DNA of 64,000 nt from Antedon mediterranea. Lineage: Eukaryota; Echinodermata; Crinoidea; Comatulida; Antedonidae. Both the position numbers and the translations under genes were made by a program. Shown one piece after another: positions 9,530 through 60,820 of this stretch. The stretch spans positions 12,434,922-12,498,921 of the forward strand of contig NC_092678.1 in NCBI RefSeq assembly GCF_964355755.1, in the 5' to 3' direction. The notes under the pieces are model-generated. The model was not told the origin of the DNA. It was given only the letters and a program-made list of their open reading frames with translations, and did not search any database. How positions within the stretch are numbered: position 1 is the first letter of the stretch; the number at the start of each line of letters is the position of its first letter.

Positions 9530-10276
9530 TACTCAAAACTAACGTTAACAATTACCGTCCCATTTCTGTTCTTTCTATTTTTGCCAAAATCTTTGAACGT
9601 ATAATTTATGATAGGACGTATTCCTTCATTCAAAAACACAACATTCTCTTCGAGAATCAATACGGTTTTTTGTAAAGGATACGATTCAGCAATGGCCCTC
9701 CTACAACTCACTAATAATATTGTGGATACCTTTGAAAACAATAAATTTGCTACTGGTATTTTCATAGATCTTTCAAAGGCATTTGACACCCTAGACCATT
9801 CAATACTTTTAGCTAAATTTCAAAATGATGGTATTCGCGGAATCACTAACAATCTCTTTAATAGTTATCTTTCAAACAGACTTCAATGTACACAAATCAA
9901 TCATGTTTCCCCCAAATTCCTTCCTATATCTCATGGTATCCCCCAAAGTTCTTTACTTGGTCCTCTACTTTTGTTACTTTACATTAATGATATTAACCCA
10001 TCCTCTAATAAATTTTCCTTTTTGCTTTACGCTGATGATACCACCGCCCTTTATACCAATAAGAACTTTCAGTCACTTGTTGAAACTGTTAATCAAGAAC
10101 TTATCAATGTTTTTAATTATTTTTCAGCAAATAAGCTTTCAGTTAATACCAAAAATTAATGTTGTGCAGTTTTATTTCGAAATTCAAACAAGCATATTTT
10201 TTTGGTGCATGGACATATTGAAATTAACAAATTTATAATTAAACAATTCAACAAAACAATACCAAATTTTTGGGCG
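9530..10276 (+). pseudogene. LINE reverse transcriptase, first half (jockey/CR1-like)
   Basis: The plus strand encodes NYRPISVLSIFAKIFERII (RT block 1). A one-base frameshift at about 9,605-9,670 follows, then IFIDLSKAFDTLDHSILL, HGIPQSSLLGPLL and the catalytic FLLYADDTTALY. These are the ordered RT motifs of the jockey/CR1 superfamily. The usual G in PQGS is replaced by S. The reading frame is interrupted after NFLG by a TTAA transposon at 10,277 and resumes at 13,486. Confidence 0.85.
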
Positions 10277-10534
10277 TTAAAGCAGAAATGTCAACACCTA
10301 TTTGAGTATTTTTTATGATTGTTTAGCTATAATAAAATATATATTAGGTTTTTCGAAATTTTTTATGTAATTTTTACCGCTAAAATCGACGTTTGAAAAT
10401 ACGATTTTTCTGACCAGTCAGCGTTTAAAGAGCCAACTCATTAACTTTACAGTCGTGACGTCATATCGGGTTTCGCTATCTTCCCTGAAAACCATCACGC
10501 TGGATGAGTACATGAAAAAGCCAATCCTCGCAAA

Positions 10535-10708
10535 ATGTATTCCGATTCCGAAGAAGAAACTTTTTCGTTAGAAATTCAGCCATACCAATATGAGCCTTTG
10601 AGAAAGGCTGGGGAATTTGAAAATTATTCTTCCGAAGAGGAAGAAGAAGACGATGTTGAGGCAGAAGGAAGGGAGGAAAGAGAAGGAAATTTAACATTAT
10701 ATGTTTAA
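10535..10708 (+). CDS. candidate first exon of transposon-borne P2X7-domain protein
   Basis: An ATG at 10,535 opens a 57-codon frame beginning MYSDSEEETFSLEIQPYQYEP and becoming very acidic (a run of E and D near residue 36). It ends in TAA at 10,706-10,708. A GT at 10,703 could act as a donor. It lies upstream of, and in the same orientation as, the P2X7-type exons at 11,321 and 11,801. I infer that it is their N-terminal exon, but no intervening exon that would set the phase was found. Confidence 0.5.
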   Translation: MYSDSEEETFSLEIQPYQYEPLRKAGEFENYSSEEEEEDDVEAEGREEREGNLTLYV

Positions 10709-11320
10709 ATAGGCTACTCGGGAGGCTACTGTAGCCTATCAATTAGTTAGCATCGGCTCCGTCATAGGCGCGGCCTACGTTATATTTGTTAGTGTTTAAA
10801 TACCGATCGTAAAACAGTCTTTAAATCTTCATTATTGCTGTTTTTATAATAAAATCATTTTAATACTGTATTATTCGTTAGCTAGCTAAGTACTGTTATG
10901 TGTAGCCTTTTCACAATTGTGATTCTACCCGACTGCCTCGGACAACACCAAAAAAAAAATAAAAATCACGGCCATATACATTATGCGGCCAGCGAGGAAG
11001 GTGGTGAGAAAGACATTTTGTTTTGGATCAAATTTGTTGATTTTAATAGGCATTTGAGTAAATTTACTGTAATAAAATGTAATTATTTTTTCGTAATTAT
11101 AGGCCTGCTACACTCTATAATACTAAGGCCAATACTAATAGGCTAGCCACAGTAATAGGCTTTATTCTATTTCTACTAGGCTAGCTACAGAAGCCTAGCT
11201 TTTGTTTGGGCTTTTTCGGTGGGATTGGGAGGACCTTGCTTATATTGATTTTCATTTATTAATTAGTTTAGTAACAGTATAAAGTATATATTTGAGTGCT
11301 GTAATGTTGATTCTATGCAG

Positions 11321-11539
11321 GTGCAAGTGCTCACATTGTACAGCAACAACTGCTGTTGAGTCTGTATGTTGTTATGAGACAGAGGAGATGGTAGAGAAAA
11401 TGGGGGAGCAAGTGGTTGGATGCATAACACAGCATACCGGGTTCAAAAACAACTGTCTGGACCACGATGTTCTTGAAGTGTCCTTCTGGCATTATGTTAA
11501 ACAGGAAGGTCCATTTGACGATGATCATCCAGTGAATCA
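11321..11539 (+). pseudogene. P2X7-type intracellular (ballast) domain, exon A
   Basis: A CTATGCAG acceptor precedes CKCSHC...VCCYETEEMVEKM...CITQHTGFKNNCL, and the exon ends at a GTAAGT donor (phase 2). The clustered Cys pairs, the E..CC segment and the C.T.H..F...CL block are the zinc-binding part of the domain known as the intracellular tail of the P2X7 receptor. There is no channel part nearby, so this is a stand-alone version of the domain. It joins exon B at 11,801 in phase. Confidence 0.75.
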
Positions 11540-11800
11540 GTAAGTTTGAGTAAATACTATATTTGAATTAACGCTCAAATTAATTACGAAACAGTTTGTA
11601 AATATAACAGTATGGTAGTGGAAATCAGATTTTTAATGACAAAACTGACAACATTAAATTAAAAAATTCAATAAACCAACTACCGACCCAAAGGTCCGGC
11701 AAGTTTCGATAAAAACAATGCAACTTCTTGTCTTGTAATGAGACATTAAAGATGGTAAATTTATTTTGTTAACTAATCACAATTTTCTTTATGTTTTCAG

Positions 11801-11960
11801 ACTATATCGCCATGTTGCCTACCGGAGGTTTACAACTTGGATATAGAAGCTACTTGGGAAGGGCAAAAGAAAAATACTTCCGTCTTGCGTAGTGTTAGCT
11901 ATTAGGAATGCATTTCCTGCGCAACAATATGTAGGCTTTAAATATCCCAAAATTCCATGA
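11801..11960 (+). pseudogene. P2X7-type intracellular domain, exon B, with in-frame stop
   Basis: After a TTTTCAG acceptor the exon reads LYRHVAYRRFTTWI, then a TAG at 11,844-11,846, then KLLGKGKRKILPSC followed by VVLAIRNAFPAQQYVGF, ending in TGA at 11,958. The blocks RH.AYR, ILPSC, IR..FP and Y.GF are the C-terminal hallmarks of the P2X7 intracellular domain, in the right order and spacing. The premature TAG indicates that this copy is inactive. Exon phases (2 to 2) match exon A. Confidence 0.8.
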
Positions 11961-12190
11961 CTAATTAGCACATTGTACAGTCACATTGTACAGTTGCATA
12001 GATTGGAAATCCACCAGTTTCACCAACGTTCAGTTCCTACAATTAAAACAATAAACAAAAGAGTTATTTAGTTAAGTTTAGTCATGATTGAGGATAATGA
12101 AAAAAAAGAACATATATAATTACTGTATGTTTCGCCATGTGTATTGTAAGACATGCAAATAAGGACTTTATTACCTTGATTATTAAAATA

Positions 12191-12395
12191 TTATTTAGTT
12201 GGAAAACGAGTACATCTTTTCTTGACCAAGTCTGCTTTGGTTTGCACATATTTTGATTTCACAATATATGAAGTTGAACAGCTTGGAGCAGCAAGATCCT
12301 GCATTTCAGTCTCGACAGGTACTGGGGGCGCATCATCAACTGTCGCAAGTCTTTCTTTTTCTTGCTTTTCAATAATCAAGATTGTCTGTAGAAGT
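12191..12395 (-). pseudogene. THAP-protein remnant, downstream exon
   Basis: On the minus strand a TTCTACAG acceptor is followed by TILIIEKQEKERLATVDD, a proline/threonine-rich stretch, then KSKYVQTKADLVKKRC and a stop. It follows the basic QKRRRRE segment of the upstream exon in phase 0 if the frameshift there is ignored. The sequence ends before any recognisable catalytic domain, so the gene is truncated. Confidence 0.5.
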
Positions 12396-12795
12396 AAAAG
12401 TAACTTGTATTACTATTATTATGCAAATAATATCAAACATGAATAAATTAACTACTGAACCGAATTAGCAATAAAATATAAATAAACCTTCCTGAATTAT
12501 ATTTATTGTAAGTACATAAGCTATTTTATAAAACATATTGTTATTATTTGACATATAATAAATCAAATAATAAAATAGGCCTACTTAAAATTGTTGCATT
12601 ATCAGCACACACCATCTTCTCATTCACATCATTTATATTATAATCCAAACTAAAAAAAGGCATATTATTATTAATCATTAAAATAAGAATGTGTGGAGGT
12701 TAGGCATAGGGCCTGTCCTGTCGATCGAGAGACGTAAATTCGGCGGTGGTGGTAAGCCTAGTTAGTGCAATAATGAAACAGTAAAAACAACACTT

Positions 12796-13170
12796 ACTTC
12801 TCTTCGCCTACGTTTTTGAAAGGCGCCTCTTGGCCTCTACTACTACTAGCAGCTGGGCCTGGGATCTTCTCGGTGGTGGTGCTTTCTGAAGGCAATGTAA
12901 CCTTCGAAGGTATTGCCCCGTCTTTCAATTTCCAATTTACGTTTTCTTTGAATCCAATTTCACGAAATTTAGGTGGGTATTTCGCAAAGTCTTCTTCCAA
13001 GAAGTGCTCCGAACATATCGTTGCGAATTTGCTAGGCTGGAAATTTTTTGGTCTGATGGCGTATCCATGCCTTTCTCAGAGCCGAAGACTTTGGGAAGGA
13101 AAAAAATCCTATATTCCGGTCGCGATTTATTGGTAAAATTAAATGCTGCACAATAATGCATTGTGTTTTG
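12796..13170 (-). pseudogene. THAP zinc-finger domain remnant (transposase N-terminus)
   Basis: Spread over three minus-strand frames are the parts of a THAP DNA-binding domain: MHYCAAFN, then FFSFPKSSALRKAWIRHQ, then ICSEHFLEEDF, then LKDGAIPSK (the usual LK.GA.PS). The order and spacing fit a THAP domain of about 90 residues. A TAG after KKFPA and at least two frameshifts show decay. A GTAAGT donor follows QKRRRRE at about 12,796. THAP domains bind the ends of P and Kolobok-type elements, so this is probably the transposase N-terminus (inference). Confidence 0.65.
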
Positions 13171-13485
13171 ATTTAACACCAACAAAAGTTAACTTTAACA
13201 AAAGTGCCTCAAGAGATTGATTACGTGAACAAAAAAATGCGAAATACAATAGAGAAATACAGTGTCCAACAACTCGTGTGTGTAACTAACCAAGCGAAGC
13301 ACTCGAGATGACGTCACGGAAATATTTCTGCATACGAACTAATTGAATTGCTCGAGTGGCTATTTTAGATTTGCTTTTTCGTGATAACGGCAAAATCTTA
13401 AAAATAACGCTATGGATGAGCCGTTTTTATTAGTGTATTACTTTATATGGATTTTATTAATGTTTTAGTGACATTTCTGCTTTAA

Positions 13486-14460
13486 CATCGATTCAGGTCT
13501 TACATGGAAACCGCATATCAAAGAAATCGAGAATAAGATATTCAAAAATATTGGTATTATTTTTAAACTTTCTTGCTTTATTCCATGCCATATCCTCCGT
13601 ACCCTTTACAGTAGCCTAATCCTTCCATATCTTAATTACTGCAATATTGTATGGTGCAACACCTATCAATCAAACACAAACAGTCTCTTTGTTAAGCAAA
13701 AGAAAGCGGTTCGGATTATCAATGGTGTTCCACCTTTAGCCCACACTGACCAACTATTCTCATCTCTTAAATTACTTAAACTTAAAGACATTAATATACT
13801 CCAACAAAGCAATTTGCTTTATTCTTCAACCACCGGCTTATAACCTCCTAAAATCTGTAATTTATTTCATCCTAATTCTTACCACCATACTTACCCTACT
13901 AGAGCCGCAACCAACTTGCATATTCCCCAACATAAAAAAACATCATTCCAACTCAACATCAGATTCAGTGGTCCCACAATTTGGAATAATTTACCCATCA
14001 ACATCAAGAATTTAACAAATAAGAAAAGCTTTTCATATAATTTTAAACGCCAGTATTATTTCAACTTACGTTCAATAATAAAAAGAAATACAAAATAAAT
14101 AATACGTCTACTCATTACAGTTTGATCCGCTGCCTTTGTTTTGACCCTTTCTGTTTTCGTCGTGTGTTCTGTTTGTGTGTGTATGTCTTGTTTTGTTAAT
14201 GTTGTGTAACCGAATATTAGAAATATTAGTAACTTTACTTATGGCTTTCCCTACACAAGTTTCTCTTGGTTTTACCCTTTGATTGTACTTTTTTTGGGAC
14301 TTTGCCACTTTCATAATTTAAAGAAATTTATTTGTATTTTTTATAGAAACTTCTTTCTTTTAAATTTTTTAATCTCATAATTTATTTGTAAATTGAAAGA
14401 AATGTTTTTTATCGTTATTCTGATTTTGAAAAAAATAAATGTTTACTTGATTGATTGATT
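13486..14460 (+). pseudogene. LINE, second half and 3' tail
   Basis: This resumes the frame broken at 10,276: SGLTWKPHIKEIENKIFKN, YSSLILPYLNYCNIVWCN, KKAVRIINGVPPLAHTDQL. After a frameshift it reads FSGPTIWNNLPINIKN, the usual C-terminal block of jockey/CR1-like ORF2. A non-coding 3' region follows, ending in AAAAAATAAATG and a short TTGATTGATTGATT tail typical of this group. Confidence 0.8.
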
Positions 14461-15893: not shown

Positions 15894-15929
15894 TGGTTGC
15901 AGCGGTTAAAAAGTAATGAAAATTTCATT

Positions 15930-16310
15930 GGATGCCAAAGAAGCAGTGAAAATCAGAACTTATTGTGTTGGCGGAACGTGTATTGTGTATTGGAAATAAG
16001 CACTGAAAAGCAGAACTGATTGTGTTGGCGGAACGTGTATTGTGTCTGGGAAATAAGCAGTGAAAAGTAGAACTGATTGTGTTGGCGGAACGTGTATTGT
16101 GTCTGGGAAATAAGCAGTGAAAAGCAGAACTGATTGTGTTGGCGGAACGTGTATTGTGTCTTGGAAGGAAGCAGTGAACAGCAGAACTGATTTGTTTGAC
16201 GGAATGTTGTATTGTAATTTTGAAGGAAGCGACGGAAAGCAGAACTGATTGTGTTGGCGGAACGTTGTATATAGTGCTTTGGAAGAAAGCGGTGAAAGTT
16301 GAACTGGGAC
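15930..16310 (+). repeat. Minisatellite in the gypsy leader, about 60-bp unit
   Basis: Five or six imperfect copies of a unit contain GAACTGATTGTGTTGGCGGA and ACGTGTATTGTGTCTGGGAA. They lie between the primer-binding site and gag. Apparent minus-strand proteins here are repeat artefacts. Confidence 0.85.
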
Positions 16311-16648
16311 TAAACATTTGTTGTGTTCGCATCTTTTTGATTTCGCGACGCGGTGAAATTTTGGACTGTTGAACTGAAATGTTAATGTTGCCGAATGATT
16401 TTTGTTATACAAGCAGGGAACTGTATCAAGATTTTAAATTGGTGAACAACATACTTTCTTTAAACTTTAAAGGTAGGGTCTATGAATTTTGTTCCATTAT
16501 ATTTGATTACAGTAAAAGATGCATATTAGATTAAGCATAAATGTTATATTATTTAAATTTAATATTGATGGAAGGTTGTGATAGAATACTAATATCAAAA
16601 ACTCATTAAATTAAACGTGTTAATGGTAATGATATACATATTGTCGAC

Positions 16649-17820: not shown

Positions 17821-18136
17821 GGAGAGTACCCTGTTGCCTGGCTTGCCACCTCCCTATAACCAAACAAAAATTGAGGGATATAGTCATCCCATGATCAGGG
17901 TACCAACTTCATGTCAAAGATCATGAAGAACTTATTTAGTAGGGTGCATATAACTCAACTTTAAACAAGTTCTTACCATCCCCAGACTAATGGTTTAATT
18001 GAACGGTTTGATGGGACACATAAGAATATGTTAATATCACTCACAAAGGAACAGTATATAAAGCATGGGATGACTATATCCCTCAATTTTTGTTTGGTTA
18101 TAGGGAGGTGGCAAGCCAGGCAACAGGGTACTCTCC
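17821..18136. repeat. Perfect 73-bp inverted repeat inside gypsy
   Basis: Bases 17,821-17,893 are the exact reverse complement of 18,064-18,136, separated by 170 bases. The right arm is integrase coding sequence in its normal place. The left arm is an inverted copy that replaces the missing protease and integrase N-terminal region. Confidence 0.95.
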
Positions 18137-18821
18137 ATTTCAGCTGCTGTATGGTAGAACTATTAGGGGACCTTTGAGTCTAGTTAGAGAGAAATGGGTG
18201 ACCATAGATAATGAAGCTAAGGATGTAATTGCATATCTTATAGAAATGCGAGAGCGCATTAGTGAATGGATGGGTAACGCCAAAGTTAATATGATTAAAC
18301 ATCAAGATAAGATGAAACAGCATTATGATAGAAATTTTAAAAATAGACAATTTGATGTAAATGATGAGGGTCTGGTATTTTTACCAGAGGGGGCAGGTAA
18401 AATGGACAATAAATGGCAAGGTCCATATAAAGTATTAACAAAAATTGATCAAGTAAATTATCTTATACAAATGCCTGATAAACGTAAAACTAAAAAGGTG
18501 GTTCATGTTGATAGTTGCAAAAGATGGTATGATAGAGACCATGAACAAAGAAGAAAGGAATGTCATTACGTTACTGGACACATCTATGATGTTTATAATG
18601 AAACTGATGATAAGACAGAGATTAGCTCTGAGAGTATTGATGTTATTTATAGAGACTTAGATCTGAAATATTTACAAACACAAACTTGGAAAGATGTTCA
18701 AATATCGAATGAGTTAACTTCTAGACAATTAAGTGAGATGAACAGTACAACATACTTAAGAATCATGCTCATATATTTTCAGATGTACCTGGGAGAACGT
18801 CTTATACATCCCATACTTTAG
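17893..18821 (+). pseudogene. gypsy integrase, partial
   Basis: This begins at the second catalytic aspartate box (DQGTNFMSKIMKNLF), continues with SSYHPQTNGLIERFDGTHKN carrying the catalytic Glu, then ATGYSPFQLLYGRTIRGPL and the GPY/F-type C-terminal block (KWQGPYKVLTKIDQVNYLI). The HHCC zinc domain and the first catalytic Asp are absent. The enzyme would insert the cDNA into the host genome. A stop after VHITQL separates the first motif. Confidence 0.8.
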
Positions 18822-41959: not shown

Positions 41960-43030
41960 TTATCGATTTTTTAAAATAGAATTCTTGTTTCAAGCAATAT
42001 TTTTCTTAAAATAAGTAAGAATATTCCGATTTGTATTTTTTTTGAATTCTTGTTTCCAGCAATATATTTCTTAAAATAAGTAAGAATATTCCGATTTGTA
42101 TTTTTTTGAATTCTTGTTTCAAGCAAGATATTTCTTAAAATAAGTAAGAATATTCCGATTTTTATTTTTTGAATTCTTGTTTCAAGCAATATTTTTCTTA
42201 AAATAAGTAAGAATATTCCGATTTGTATTTTTTGAATTCTTGTTTCAAGCAATATTTTTCTTAAAATAAGTAAGAATATTCCGATTTGTATTTTTTTAAT
42301 TCTTGTTTCAAGCAATTTTTTTCTTAAAATAAGTAAGAATATTCCGATTTGTATTTTTTGAATTCTTGTTTCAAGCAAAATATTTCTTAAAATAAGTAAG
42401 AATATTCCGATTTTTATTTGTAGAATTCTTGTTTCAAGCAATATTTTTCTTAAAATAAGTAAGAATATTCCGATTTGTATTTTTTAGAATTCTTGTTTTA
42501 AGCAATATTTTTCTTAAAATAAGTAAGAATATTCCGATTTTTAATTTTAATATTCTTGTTTCAAGCAATATATTTCTTAAAATAAGTAAGAATATTCCGA
42601 TTTGTATTTTTTGAATTCTTGTTTCAAGCAATATTTTTCTTAAAAAAGTAAGAATATTCCGATTTGTATTTTTTGAATTCTTGTTTCAAGCAATATTTTT
42701 CTTAAAATAAGTAAGAATATTCCGATTTGTATTTTTTGAATTCTTGTTTCAAGCAATATATTTCTTAAAATAAGTAAGAATATTCCGATTTTTATTTGTA
42801 GAATTCTTGTTTCAAGCAATATTTTTCTTAAAATAAGTAAGAATATTCCGGTTTGTATTTTTTAGAATTCTTGTTTTAAGCAATATTTTTCTTAAAATAA
42901 GTAAGAATATTCCGATTTATATTTTTAGTTTTCTTGTTTCAAGCAATATATTTCTTAAAATAAGTAAGAATATTCTGATTTTTATTTGTAGAATTCTTGT
43001 TTCAAGCAAAACTTTTTTTAAAATAAGTAA
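41960..43030. repeat. Left subterminal minisatellite, about 61-bp unit
   Basis: About 17 copies of a unit with GAATTCTTGTTTCAAGCAAT, TTTTCTTAAAATAAGTAAGA and ATATTCCGATTTGTATTTT. Diverged and inverted copies continue to about 43,250. Minus-strand open frames here are artefacts of the unit. Confidence 0.95.
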
Positions 43031-46939: not shown

Positions 46940-48430
46940 TAAAATAGAATTGACTTCAATTCAAGCAAAAATAGTCTTGATAGGATATAGTATGATATTG
47001 ACTTCTTATCTTAAGTAAAACATTTCTCAAAATAAGTATTTTTAAAAATATTGCGAATCTCAATTTAAGCAAAAATAGTCTTGAGAAGATAGTATGATAT
47101 TGACTTCTTATTTTAAGTAAAACATTTCTCAAAATAAGTATTTTAAAGAATATTGCGAATCTTGATTCAAGTAAAAATAGTCTTGATAAGATAGTATGAT
47201 ATTGACTTCTTATTTTAAGTAAAACATTTCTCAAAATCAGAATATTGCGAATCTGAATTCAAGCAAAAATAGTCTTGATAGGATAGTATGATATTGACTT
47301 CTTATTTTAAGTAAAACATTTTTCAAAATAAGTATTTTTTTAAATATTGCGAATCTCAATTTAAGCAAAAATAGTCTTGATAAGATAGTATGATATTGAC
47401 TTCTTATTTTAAGTAAAACATTTCTCGAAATAAGTATTTTTAAGAATATTGCGAATCTTGATTCAAGTAAAAATAGTCTTGATAAGATAGTATGATATTG
47501 ACTTCTTATTTTAAGTAAAACATTTCTCAAAATAAGTATTTTAAAAAATATTGCGAATCTCAATTTAAGCAAAAATAGTCTTGATAAGATAGTATGATAT
47601 TGACTTCTTATTTTAAGTAAAACATTTCTCAAAATAAGTATTTTTAAGAATATTGCGAAACCTAATTTAAGAACCTTTGTCTTACCTAGAAAAATATTTT
47701 TTGTTTTAAGTAATTTTTAGAATTCATCAATCTTGATTTAAGAAAAATTATTCTTGATAGGGATAAATATAATATTGATTTCTTATTTTAAGTAAAATAC
47801 TTTTCAAATTAAGTATTTTCAAATCTTGTTTTAAGCAAAACTATTCTTAATAAGAAGAGAATGATATTGACTTCTTATTTTAAGTAAAATATTTCTTGTA
47901 ATAAGCATTTTCAAGAATATTGCGAATCTTGATTCAAGTAAAAATAATCTTGATAAGGGTAGTGTGAAATTGACTTCTTATTTTAAGTAAAATATTTCTC
48001 AAAACAAGTATTTTCAAGACTATTGCAAAACCTAATTTAAGAAACTTTGTCTTACCTAGAAAAATATTGATTGTTTTAAGCAATTTTTATAATTCATCAA
48101 TCTTGATTTAAGAAAAATTATTCTTGATAGGGATAAATATAATATAGATTTCTTATTTTAAGTAAAATACTTTTCAAACTAAGTATTTTCAAATCTTGTT
48201 TTAAGCAAAACTATTCTTAATAAGAAGAGAATGATATTGACTTCTTATTTTAAGTAAAATATTTCTTGTAATAAGCATTTTCAAGAATACTGCAAAACTT
48301 AATTTAAGAAAATGTGTCTTTTCTAGAAAATTATTTCTTGTTTTAAGTAATTTTAAATCTTGACAAGAAAAAAAATACTTATTTTAAGAATTTTTTCTTA
48401 AAACAAGATTTTTTTTTCTTGCTTAGAATT
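46940..48430. repeat. Right subterminal minisatellite, about 103-bp unit
   Basis: Repeated TATGATATTGACTTCTTATT, TTAAGTAAAACATTTCTCAA and GCAAAAATAGTCTTGATAAG at about 103-bp spacing, regular to about 47,650 and then more diverged. Open frames on the minus strand are repeat products. Confidence 0.95.
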
Positions 48431-48483
48431 TCAAATTTTGCTGTGTATAGATATATATTTATATACAGTCCACAGAACGTCTC

Positions 48484-49020
48484 ATGACTATTTTTCCGGA
48501 ACCACCCATTATTGCATTTCGTAGACCTCCCAACCTTCGTGATATATTAGTCAGATCCAAATTTAAGAGTGAAATTAACTCTCATGACAGCCAAAATTTG
48601 GGCAGTCACCTTTGCGGCACATCTTGCAAAACTTGTTCATTGGTTGATTCTACTGAAAAATTTGAGATTAACCAAACTGGCCGCATTTTTCGGATAAGAC
48701 AATCAATTAATTGTCTAACCAAAAACGTCATTTATCTCATATACTGTAATATTTGTGGCAAACAGTACGTCGGAGAAACAAAAAACACTCTCCGTATGAG
48801 AATGACACAACATAGATCAGCTATCAAAACATTAAAGCTTGATCAACCTGTAGCCGAACATTTTAATTCAGCTGGTCACTCGATTGAAAATTTCAGAGTT
48901 ATTGCAATAGGCCACAATGTAATGGAGCGACAAAACTCGCAAAGACAAAGAAAACCACTGGGAATTACTACTTAAAACCACAAAACCTTTTGGACTTAAC
49001 ATTAGGAACATACTCCCAGA
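48484..49020 (+). pseudogene. Penelope-like element, GIY-YIG endonuclease fragment
   Basis: EPPIIAFRRPPNLRDILVRS and the cysteine-rich HLCGTSCKTC lead into the GIY-YIG nuclease: VIYLIYCNICGKQYVGETKN, then TLRMRMTQHRSAI. PLE proteins combine a telomerase-like RT with this nuclease; only the C-terminal part is here. A one-base frameshift near 48,945 moves the true tail into another frame (ENHWELLLKTTKPFGLNIRN, ILPDR, stop at about 49,027). It is 5'-truncated 36 bp beyond the right end of the 6.8-kb transposon. Confidence 0.85.
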
Positions 49021-60080: not shown

Positions 60081-60211
60081 GCAAATGATACTGTTTTTAT
60101 CTTTTTTTAAATTTTACTTTTTGTCGACATTTTGTTTGAATCACATGACCTAAATAGTAAACAAATGAATAGTGATCTAGTTTATACATGTGACCTGAAT
60201 ATATAAACAAG

Positions 60212-60820
60212 ATATCGCTAGTCACTACGTGTCACCAAATATCGCTAGTCACTACGTGTAACCAAATATCGCTAGTCACTACGTGTCACCAAATATCGCT
60301 AGTCACTACGTGTCACCAAATATCGCTAGTCACTACGTGTCACCAAATATCGCTAGTCACTACGTGTCACCAAATATCGCTAATCACTACGTGTCACCAA
60401 ATATCGCTAATCACTACGTGTCACCAAATATCGCTAGTCACTACATGTCACCAAATATCGCTAGTCACTACGTGTGACCAAAAATCGCTAGACACTACGT
60501 GTGACCAAATATCGCTAGTCACTACGTGTCACCAAATATCGCTAGTCACTACGTGTCACCAAATATCGCTAGTCACTACATGTCACCAAATATCGCTAGT
60601 CACTACGTGTCACCAAATATCGCTAGTCACTACGTGTCACCAAATATCGCTAGTCACTACGTGTCACCAAATATCGCTAGTCACTACGTGTCACCAAATA
60701 TCGCTAGACACTACGTGTGACCAAAAATCGCTAGACACTACGTGTGACCAAATATCGCTAGTCACTACATGTGACCAAATATCACTAGTCACTACATGTG
60801 ACTAAATATCGCTAGTCACT
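60212..60820. repeat. 27-bp minisatellite, about 22 copies
   Basis: Unit ACCAAATATCGCTAGTCACT plus ACGTGTC, very uniform in the middle and decaying at the right end. Because 27 is a multiple of 3, it gives long open frames (SPNIASHYV) that are not evidence of a gene. Confidence 0.95.

Follow-up and report, generated by a model that had tools for sequence, protein, structure and literature searches.

A 64,000-nucleotide stretch of the Antedon mediterranea genome (here called the window) carries, at positions 10281-13481, a 3,201-bp element that we identify with high confidence as a decayed, non-autonomous DNA transposon related to the Kol0 lineage of the Kolobok superfamily, with KolX as its accessory gene. 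The element's coordinates proved exact on re-check. Kol0 elements encode KolX, a protein with the ballast fold of the P2X7 receptor, which matches P2X7 476-595 and has seven cysteines; P2X7 itself is traced to a P2X4-like gene that became fused to KolX (Kojima and Bao 2022, PMC9587614; here and below, from the available portion of the text). The link between P2X7 and KolX is therefore already published, and the suggestion in an earlier note on this DNA that a transposon could have given a P2X receptor its tail, while in agreement with that paper, is not new. What the present analysis adds is a census in a single genome, the description of families that retain KolX without a DDE gene, and a weakly supported affinity between the P2X7 tail and one sub-lineage of KolX. 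It provides independent support, from a genome of 354 Mb (18 contigs), for the published view of the P2X7 ballast domain as a transposon gene.

Table 1. Features of the element and of its insertion site (window coordinates).
Feature	Position	Strand	Remarks
Host non-LTR retrotransposon reverse-transcriptase gene	9605..14098	+	RVT_1; decayed, split by the element
TTAA target duplication, left copy	10277..10280	.	sequence
Left terminal inverted repeat, AGCAGAAATGTCA	10281..10293	+	5' AG, fits Kolobok 5'-RR
Putative KolX exon 1 (MYSDSEEE...PYQYEP..., acidic)	10535..10690	+	open frame with start, no clear splice donor; placed by layout
KolX / P2RX7_C exon 2	11321..11539	+	6 of 7 zinc cysteines; donor GTAAGT next
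KolX / P2RX7_C exon 3 (ILPSC..IR..FP..YVGFKYP)	11801..11960	+	TAG at 11844
Downstream piece, probable THAP-gene exon	12191..12385	-	open frame after AG acceptor; no family match
THAP-domain exon	12794..13161	-	frameshifted; F in place of the second zinc cysteine; other copies show the C2CH pattern
Right terminal inverted repeat, TGACATTTCTGCT	13469..13481	-	perfect 13-bp match to left end
TTAA target duplication, right copy	13482..13485	.	sequence

The inverted ends match at 13 of 13 positions and have a TTAA on either side, as the earlier note had it (Table 1). The termini read AG...CT, an arrangement found again in two other families of this genome (B and D, below) and conforming to the 5'-RR...YY-3' ends of Kolobok elements. 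The element lies within a reverse-transcriptase gene, whose left part matches RVT_1 at 3.6e-15 (Pfam). When the flanks are joined with one TTAA, they read in frame as FLGVNIDSGLTW, with FLGVNIDSGLTWKPHI in one reading frame. A genome search with the 315 bases of joined flanks returned 37 matches, including the window's own two halves. Three of the 37 cover nearly all 315 bases without interruption (85%, 82% and 82% identity), the remaining 32 being shorter or weaker. One of the three, L069, is an empty site, with the junction GCGTTAA|CATCG and a single TTAA; the other two (L070, L072) are also uninterrupted across the site, but their junction sequence has diverged. The single TTAA of the empty site, together with the TTAA found at eight of nine right ends in the genome (see below), identifies TTAA as the duplicated target. 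The element was thus inserted at a TTAA into a non-LTR retrotransposon.

The octamer TAGGCCTA occurs 22 times in positions 1-64000, against 0.54 expected from base composition. An open frame at 48451-48975 contains YCNICGKQYVGET...MRMTQH, which we take to be the GIY-YIG look of Penelope-like elements; another, at 18024-18821, presumably resembles the end of an LTR-retrotransposon integrase. Four long open frames (15925-16433, 41971-42483, 47237-47716 and 60194-60805) consist of short peptides that recur many times, and look like tandem-repeat DNA and not like genes.

The rightward gene of the element is KolX. Splicing exon 2 to exon 3, across an intron bordered by GTAAGT and TTTTCAG, gives a product that matches the Pfam family P2RX7_C (PF20478) at 3.6e-15 (56.8 bits) and the P2X7 chains in the PDB at 2.6e-7. 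Alignment places in it all seven zinc cysteines of the P2X7 tail; by its sequence, the gene would therefore encode the ballast-fold, seven-cysteine KolX of Kol0 elements. An acidic exon containing PYQYEP probably represents exon 1; this assignment follows from the layout, the piece alone giving no Pfam match. The reading frame is interrupted by the TAG in exon 3, a position at which L024, L026 and L027, that is, all the other copies in which exon 3 was found, have a W codon. Pfam searches in six frames gave no match to the P2X_receptor channel domain anywhere in the element. These results and the orientation of the genes bear out the convergent pair, with a P2X7-tail domain free of any channel, that the earlier note had described.

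The second gene converges on the first, its THAP exon ending 833 bp from the end of KolX. DDE, THAP and H2CH parts are the usual make-up of a Kolobok transposase (PMC6004289, from the available portion). In the window copy the THAP match is weak and broken, scoring 21.5 bits, below the Pfam cut-off of 23.9, and 20.3 bits when read across the frameshift. The THAP domain claimed for this DNA in the earlier note is nonetheless upheld by six other members of the same family, which score 52-59 bits, each with one internal TAA. As the THAP match falls under the cut-off and no DDE domain is present, the sequence of the window copy alone would be insufficient to prove that the element is a Kolobok.

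Further copies were sought with the 17-mer TTAAAGCAGAAATGTCA, which combines the TTAA and the inverted repeat. It occurs 18 times in the genome, against a single occurrence of a reversed-pattern control, and six pairs of matches bracket copies: the window element (L061) and L024, L025, L026, L027 and L028. These two-ended copies measure 3.2-8.7 kb, the longest apparently having been enlarged by inserts, and share a common plan, their main aligned blocks being about 86-99% identical. A pattern for the right end (25 bases without the TTAA, three mismatches permitted) was found in nine places, and its control in none. Eight of the nine are TTAA-preceded 17-mer matches. The ninth adjoins GTAA. A left end is found 8.6 kb away from it on contig C3, with KolX and THAP matches in between, so that this ninth end probably marks a seventh copy of the family. 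As for gene content, THAP sequence is present in six of the six two-ended copies, KolX exon 2 in five and exon 3 in four. A copy lacking the P2X7-domain gene, which the earlier note had named as evidence against its reading, does occur: L028 has neither KolX exon, and we read this as a deletion. L025 lacks exon 3. On the minus strand of L025, element positions 479-1675 form an open frame of 399 amino acids, probably for the most part a nested insert.

Could the two be ordinary host genes, one a domesticated KolX/NANOR-like gene and the other a THAP gene, lying between chance repeats? Stand-alone ballast-domain genes have indeed been described as ordinary genes of animals (Rump 2020, PMC7016195, from the available portion). 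Against this stand the several copies with identical layout and ends, the empty site, and the stop codon, frameshift and lost cysteine of the window copy, which are not marks of a maintained gene. We give the host-gene explanation next to no credence and retain that of a transposon.

The transposon is unlikely to have moved by itself. Pfam (six frames) and NCBIfam (four frames) gave no DDE transposase in the window element; a tblastn query with the DDE sequence of family B (below) found nothing in any of the six copies L024-L028 and L061, and none of the genome-wide matches to this query fell inside the six two-ended intervals. The DDD/E transposase of an autonomous Kolobok is thus missing, in these searches, from the window copy and its five two-ended relatives, and for this reason we classify the element as a non-autonomous relative. 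A partner element, with the ends of the window family and a DDE gene, was not found among the end-bracketed copies. The THAP exons of L024, L025, L028 and the single-end locus L015 have a common CAAFNCTN start that runs into an identical TAA, which points to a pseudogenic master. From these sequences we read the window family as one that was transposase-less and spread in that state. No relatives of it were found in the viral or prokaryote contigs searched. Five contigs of the viral collection gave one exact end match apiece, which we attribute to chance.

The PF20478 search of the genome produced 70 matches, merged into 66 loci, and the THAP search 75. A THAP match lies within 10 kb of 37 of the 66 KolX loci, in convergent orientation in 35, when 0.28 pairs in either orientation would be expected by chance. 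The family B DDE query gave 103 matches in 65 loci. Such a match is found within 8 kb of 34 KolX loci (convergent in 32) and is wanting, over the same distance, at the other 32, which include the window family and family D. Conversely, a KolX match within 8 kb is missing at 32 of the 65 DDE loci. With so many loci unpaired on both sides, the partnership of KolX and DDE is not a strict one.

The DNA of 36 KolX loci (L029-L064, picked mostly by best score) was compared. All except L037 and L060 align over at least 300 bp with at least one other locus, so that the domain, among the compared loci, is repetitive (34 of 36) and not mostly single-copy. The alignments end at TTAA in 5/5 cases in family B, 4/4 in family C, 3/3 in family E (two with a common flank) and eight of the nine shown for family D, the ninth having an extra T. 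Family A had no TTAA at the one alignment end shown. A scan of L060 and L062 for inverted repeats returned no pair; their ends may be outside the locus or decayed. The view that the domain travels as transposon cargo, put forward in the earlier note, is thus correct as far as travel goes, since the domain does move on TTAA/THAP elements: it has 66 loci here, several of them in multi-copy, TTAA-bounded families and about half with a DDE or THAP match close by in convergent orientation. It needs amending as to cargo: the domain belongs to the element's own accessory gene, KolX, and is not a captured host gene.

Family B displays the complete plan: over 5.3 kb, a TTAA is followed by KolX on the plus strand, DDE and THAP on the minus strand, and a second TTAA. 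KolX is here a single open frame of 180 amino acids at one end (1.3e-18), the THAP exon is at the opposite end (8.3e-18), and the DDE exon lies between them on the THAP strand. The terminal repeats have one mismatch in 13. Two 5.3-kb copies are 99.87% identical, and the DDE peptide is identical in five copies. Against Pfam this peptide scores weakly, under cut-off, with MULE (0.0099) and DDE_Tnp_ISL3 (0.022). It contains DTPGHS, TTDRH and DIFH, which we take to be the usual surroundings of D, D and DxxH.

The family B layout also bears on whether the window element might be of piggyBac type, with a captured KolX-like gene. Such an element would likewise duplicate TTAA, and a few piggyBac families do have a KolX-like C-terminal part (PMC9587614). 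In those proteins, however, most of the seven cysteines are missing, whereas all are present here, and the AG...CT termini are of the form that the same source gives for Kolobok in contrast to piggyBac. The window family has a THAP domain, family B combines a THAP exon with a DDE gene in the same layout, and Pfam searches in six frames detected no piggyBac transposase in the window copy. A piggyBac origin is accordingly very improbable, and assignment to Kolobok is preferred.

Family D, a 3.1-kb TTAA element (L043-L055, L067, L068; 13 loci), retains the KolX end and has no THAP match within 10 kb and no DDE match within 8 kb. That KolX exons persist in this family and in the window family without a detected DDE gene might mean that KolX is under selection in transposase-less families, acting in cis or aiding the movement of its own element. 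The substitution pattern argues otherwise. In family D (13 rows, an open frame of 107-110 codons) pN/pS is 0.83; it becomes 1.37 after dropping two rows with a frameshifted tail and 0.81 when all 13 rows are kept but cut to their first 92 columns, these values deriving from few changes in related rows. Family D KolX thus looks to be evolving near neutrality. In addition, the frame upstream of its open frame is broken in both copies inspected, and the TAA common to the window-family THAP exons suggests, as said, that a pseudogenic master was copied. We hold selection on KolX in these families to be improbable, and consider the near-neutral pN/pS of family D a reason to regard the helper as dispensable in cis in reduced families.

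A mechanism may be proposed on these grounds. Copies of the window family would owe their movement to a transposase acting in trans and supplied by a complete Kolobok; with its THAP domain this enzyme would bind the inverted ends, excise the element and join it at a TTAA. KolX would be a native helper of complete elements, perhaps as a cofactor that binds zinc or nucleic acid, and would have ridden along after the DDE core was lost.

How the KolX genes of this genome relate to P2X7 was considered next to the census. The window KolX is 38% identical to the P2X7 tail in PDB 6u9v. Twelve P2X_receptor exon matches fall in two places on C3 (about 4.20 and 6.68-6.72 Mb), all 70 P2RX7_C matches being far from them; the nearest on C3 are 1.7 and 1.5 Mb away, and no channel-ballast fusion was seen in the genome. 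In a small tree, some rows of which were pieced together, the P2X7 tail groups with A1 and A2, though the support for this is not strong (80/74), and the motif SCCxWxIR is common to the three. The nearest BLASTP matches to the P2X7 tail are likewise A2 (74.7 bits) and A1 (71.2), followed by C (68.2), the window family reaching 53.1. At every A-type locus (three of A1 and one of A2, four in all) a DDE match in convergent orientation lies about 1.9 kb away. Sequence likeness thus allows the tentative, still rather doubtful, suggestion that the P2X7 tail descends from one KolX sub-lineage, transposon-linked here as families A1/A2. If true, the donor of the vertebrate P2X7 tail would be traceable to one Kolobok branch and not to KolX at large. 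A census of KolX sub-lineages could reveal which one the P2X7 ancestor captured.

Among known systems, the closest is Kol0, of the Kolobok-1_XT type (PMC9587614), which resembles the elements described here in its TTAA, its 5'-RR...YY-3' ends and a seven-cysteine KolX beside the transposase gene. Kol0 has both genes, as does family B in the present genome, whereas the window copy and its five two-ended relatives have no detected DDE core. The convergent orientation of KolX and transposase was measured here; the available text on Kol0 does not state one. Xenopus Kolobok transposases have THAP joined to DDE, the window copy having the THAP end only; the word KolX is absent from the text of that paper (PMC6004289). 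The C-terminal ballast, or ZCD, of P2X7 and zebrafish NANOR possess the homologous domain, with its seven zinc cysteines and C-terminal GFKYP; unlike the window element, the P2X7 receptor has a channel domain. Finally, the 66 ballast-domain loci of A. mediterranea, many of them partial or broken, contrast with the fewer than 10 genes per species given by Rump 2020 (PMC7016195), which reported no large families and whose text does not contain the stem "transpos". The two linked markers that the legend of its Figure 6 places beside ballast-domain genes across invertebrates might belong, with those genes, to the same transposons. The present data show how abundant the domain can be and provide the convergent gene plan and an empty site.
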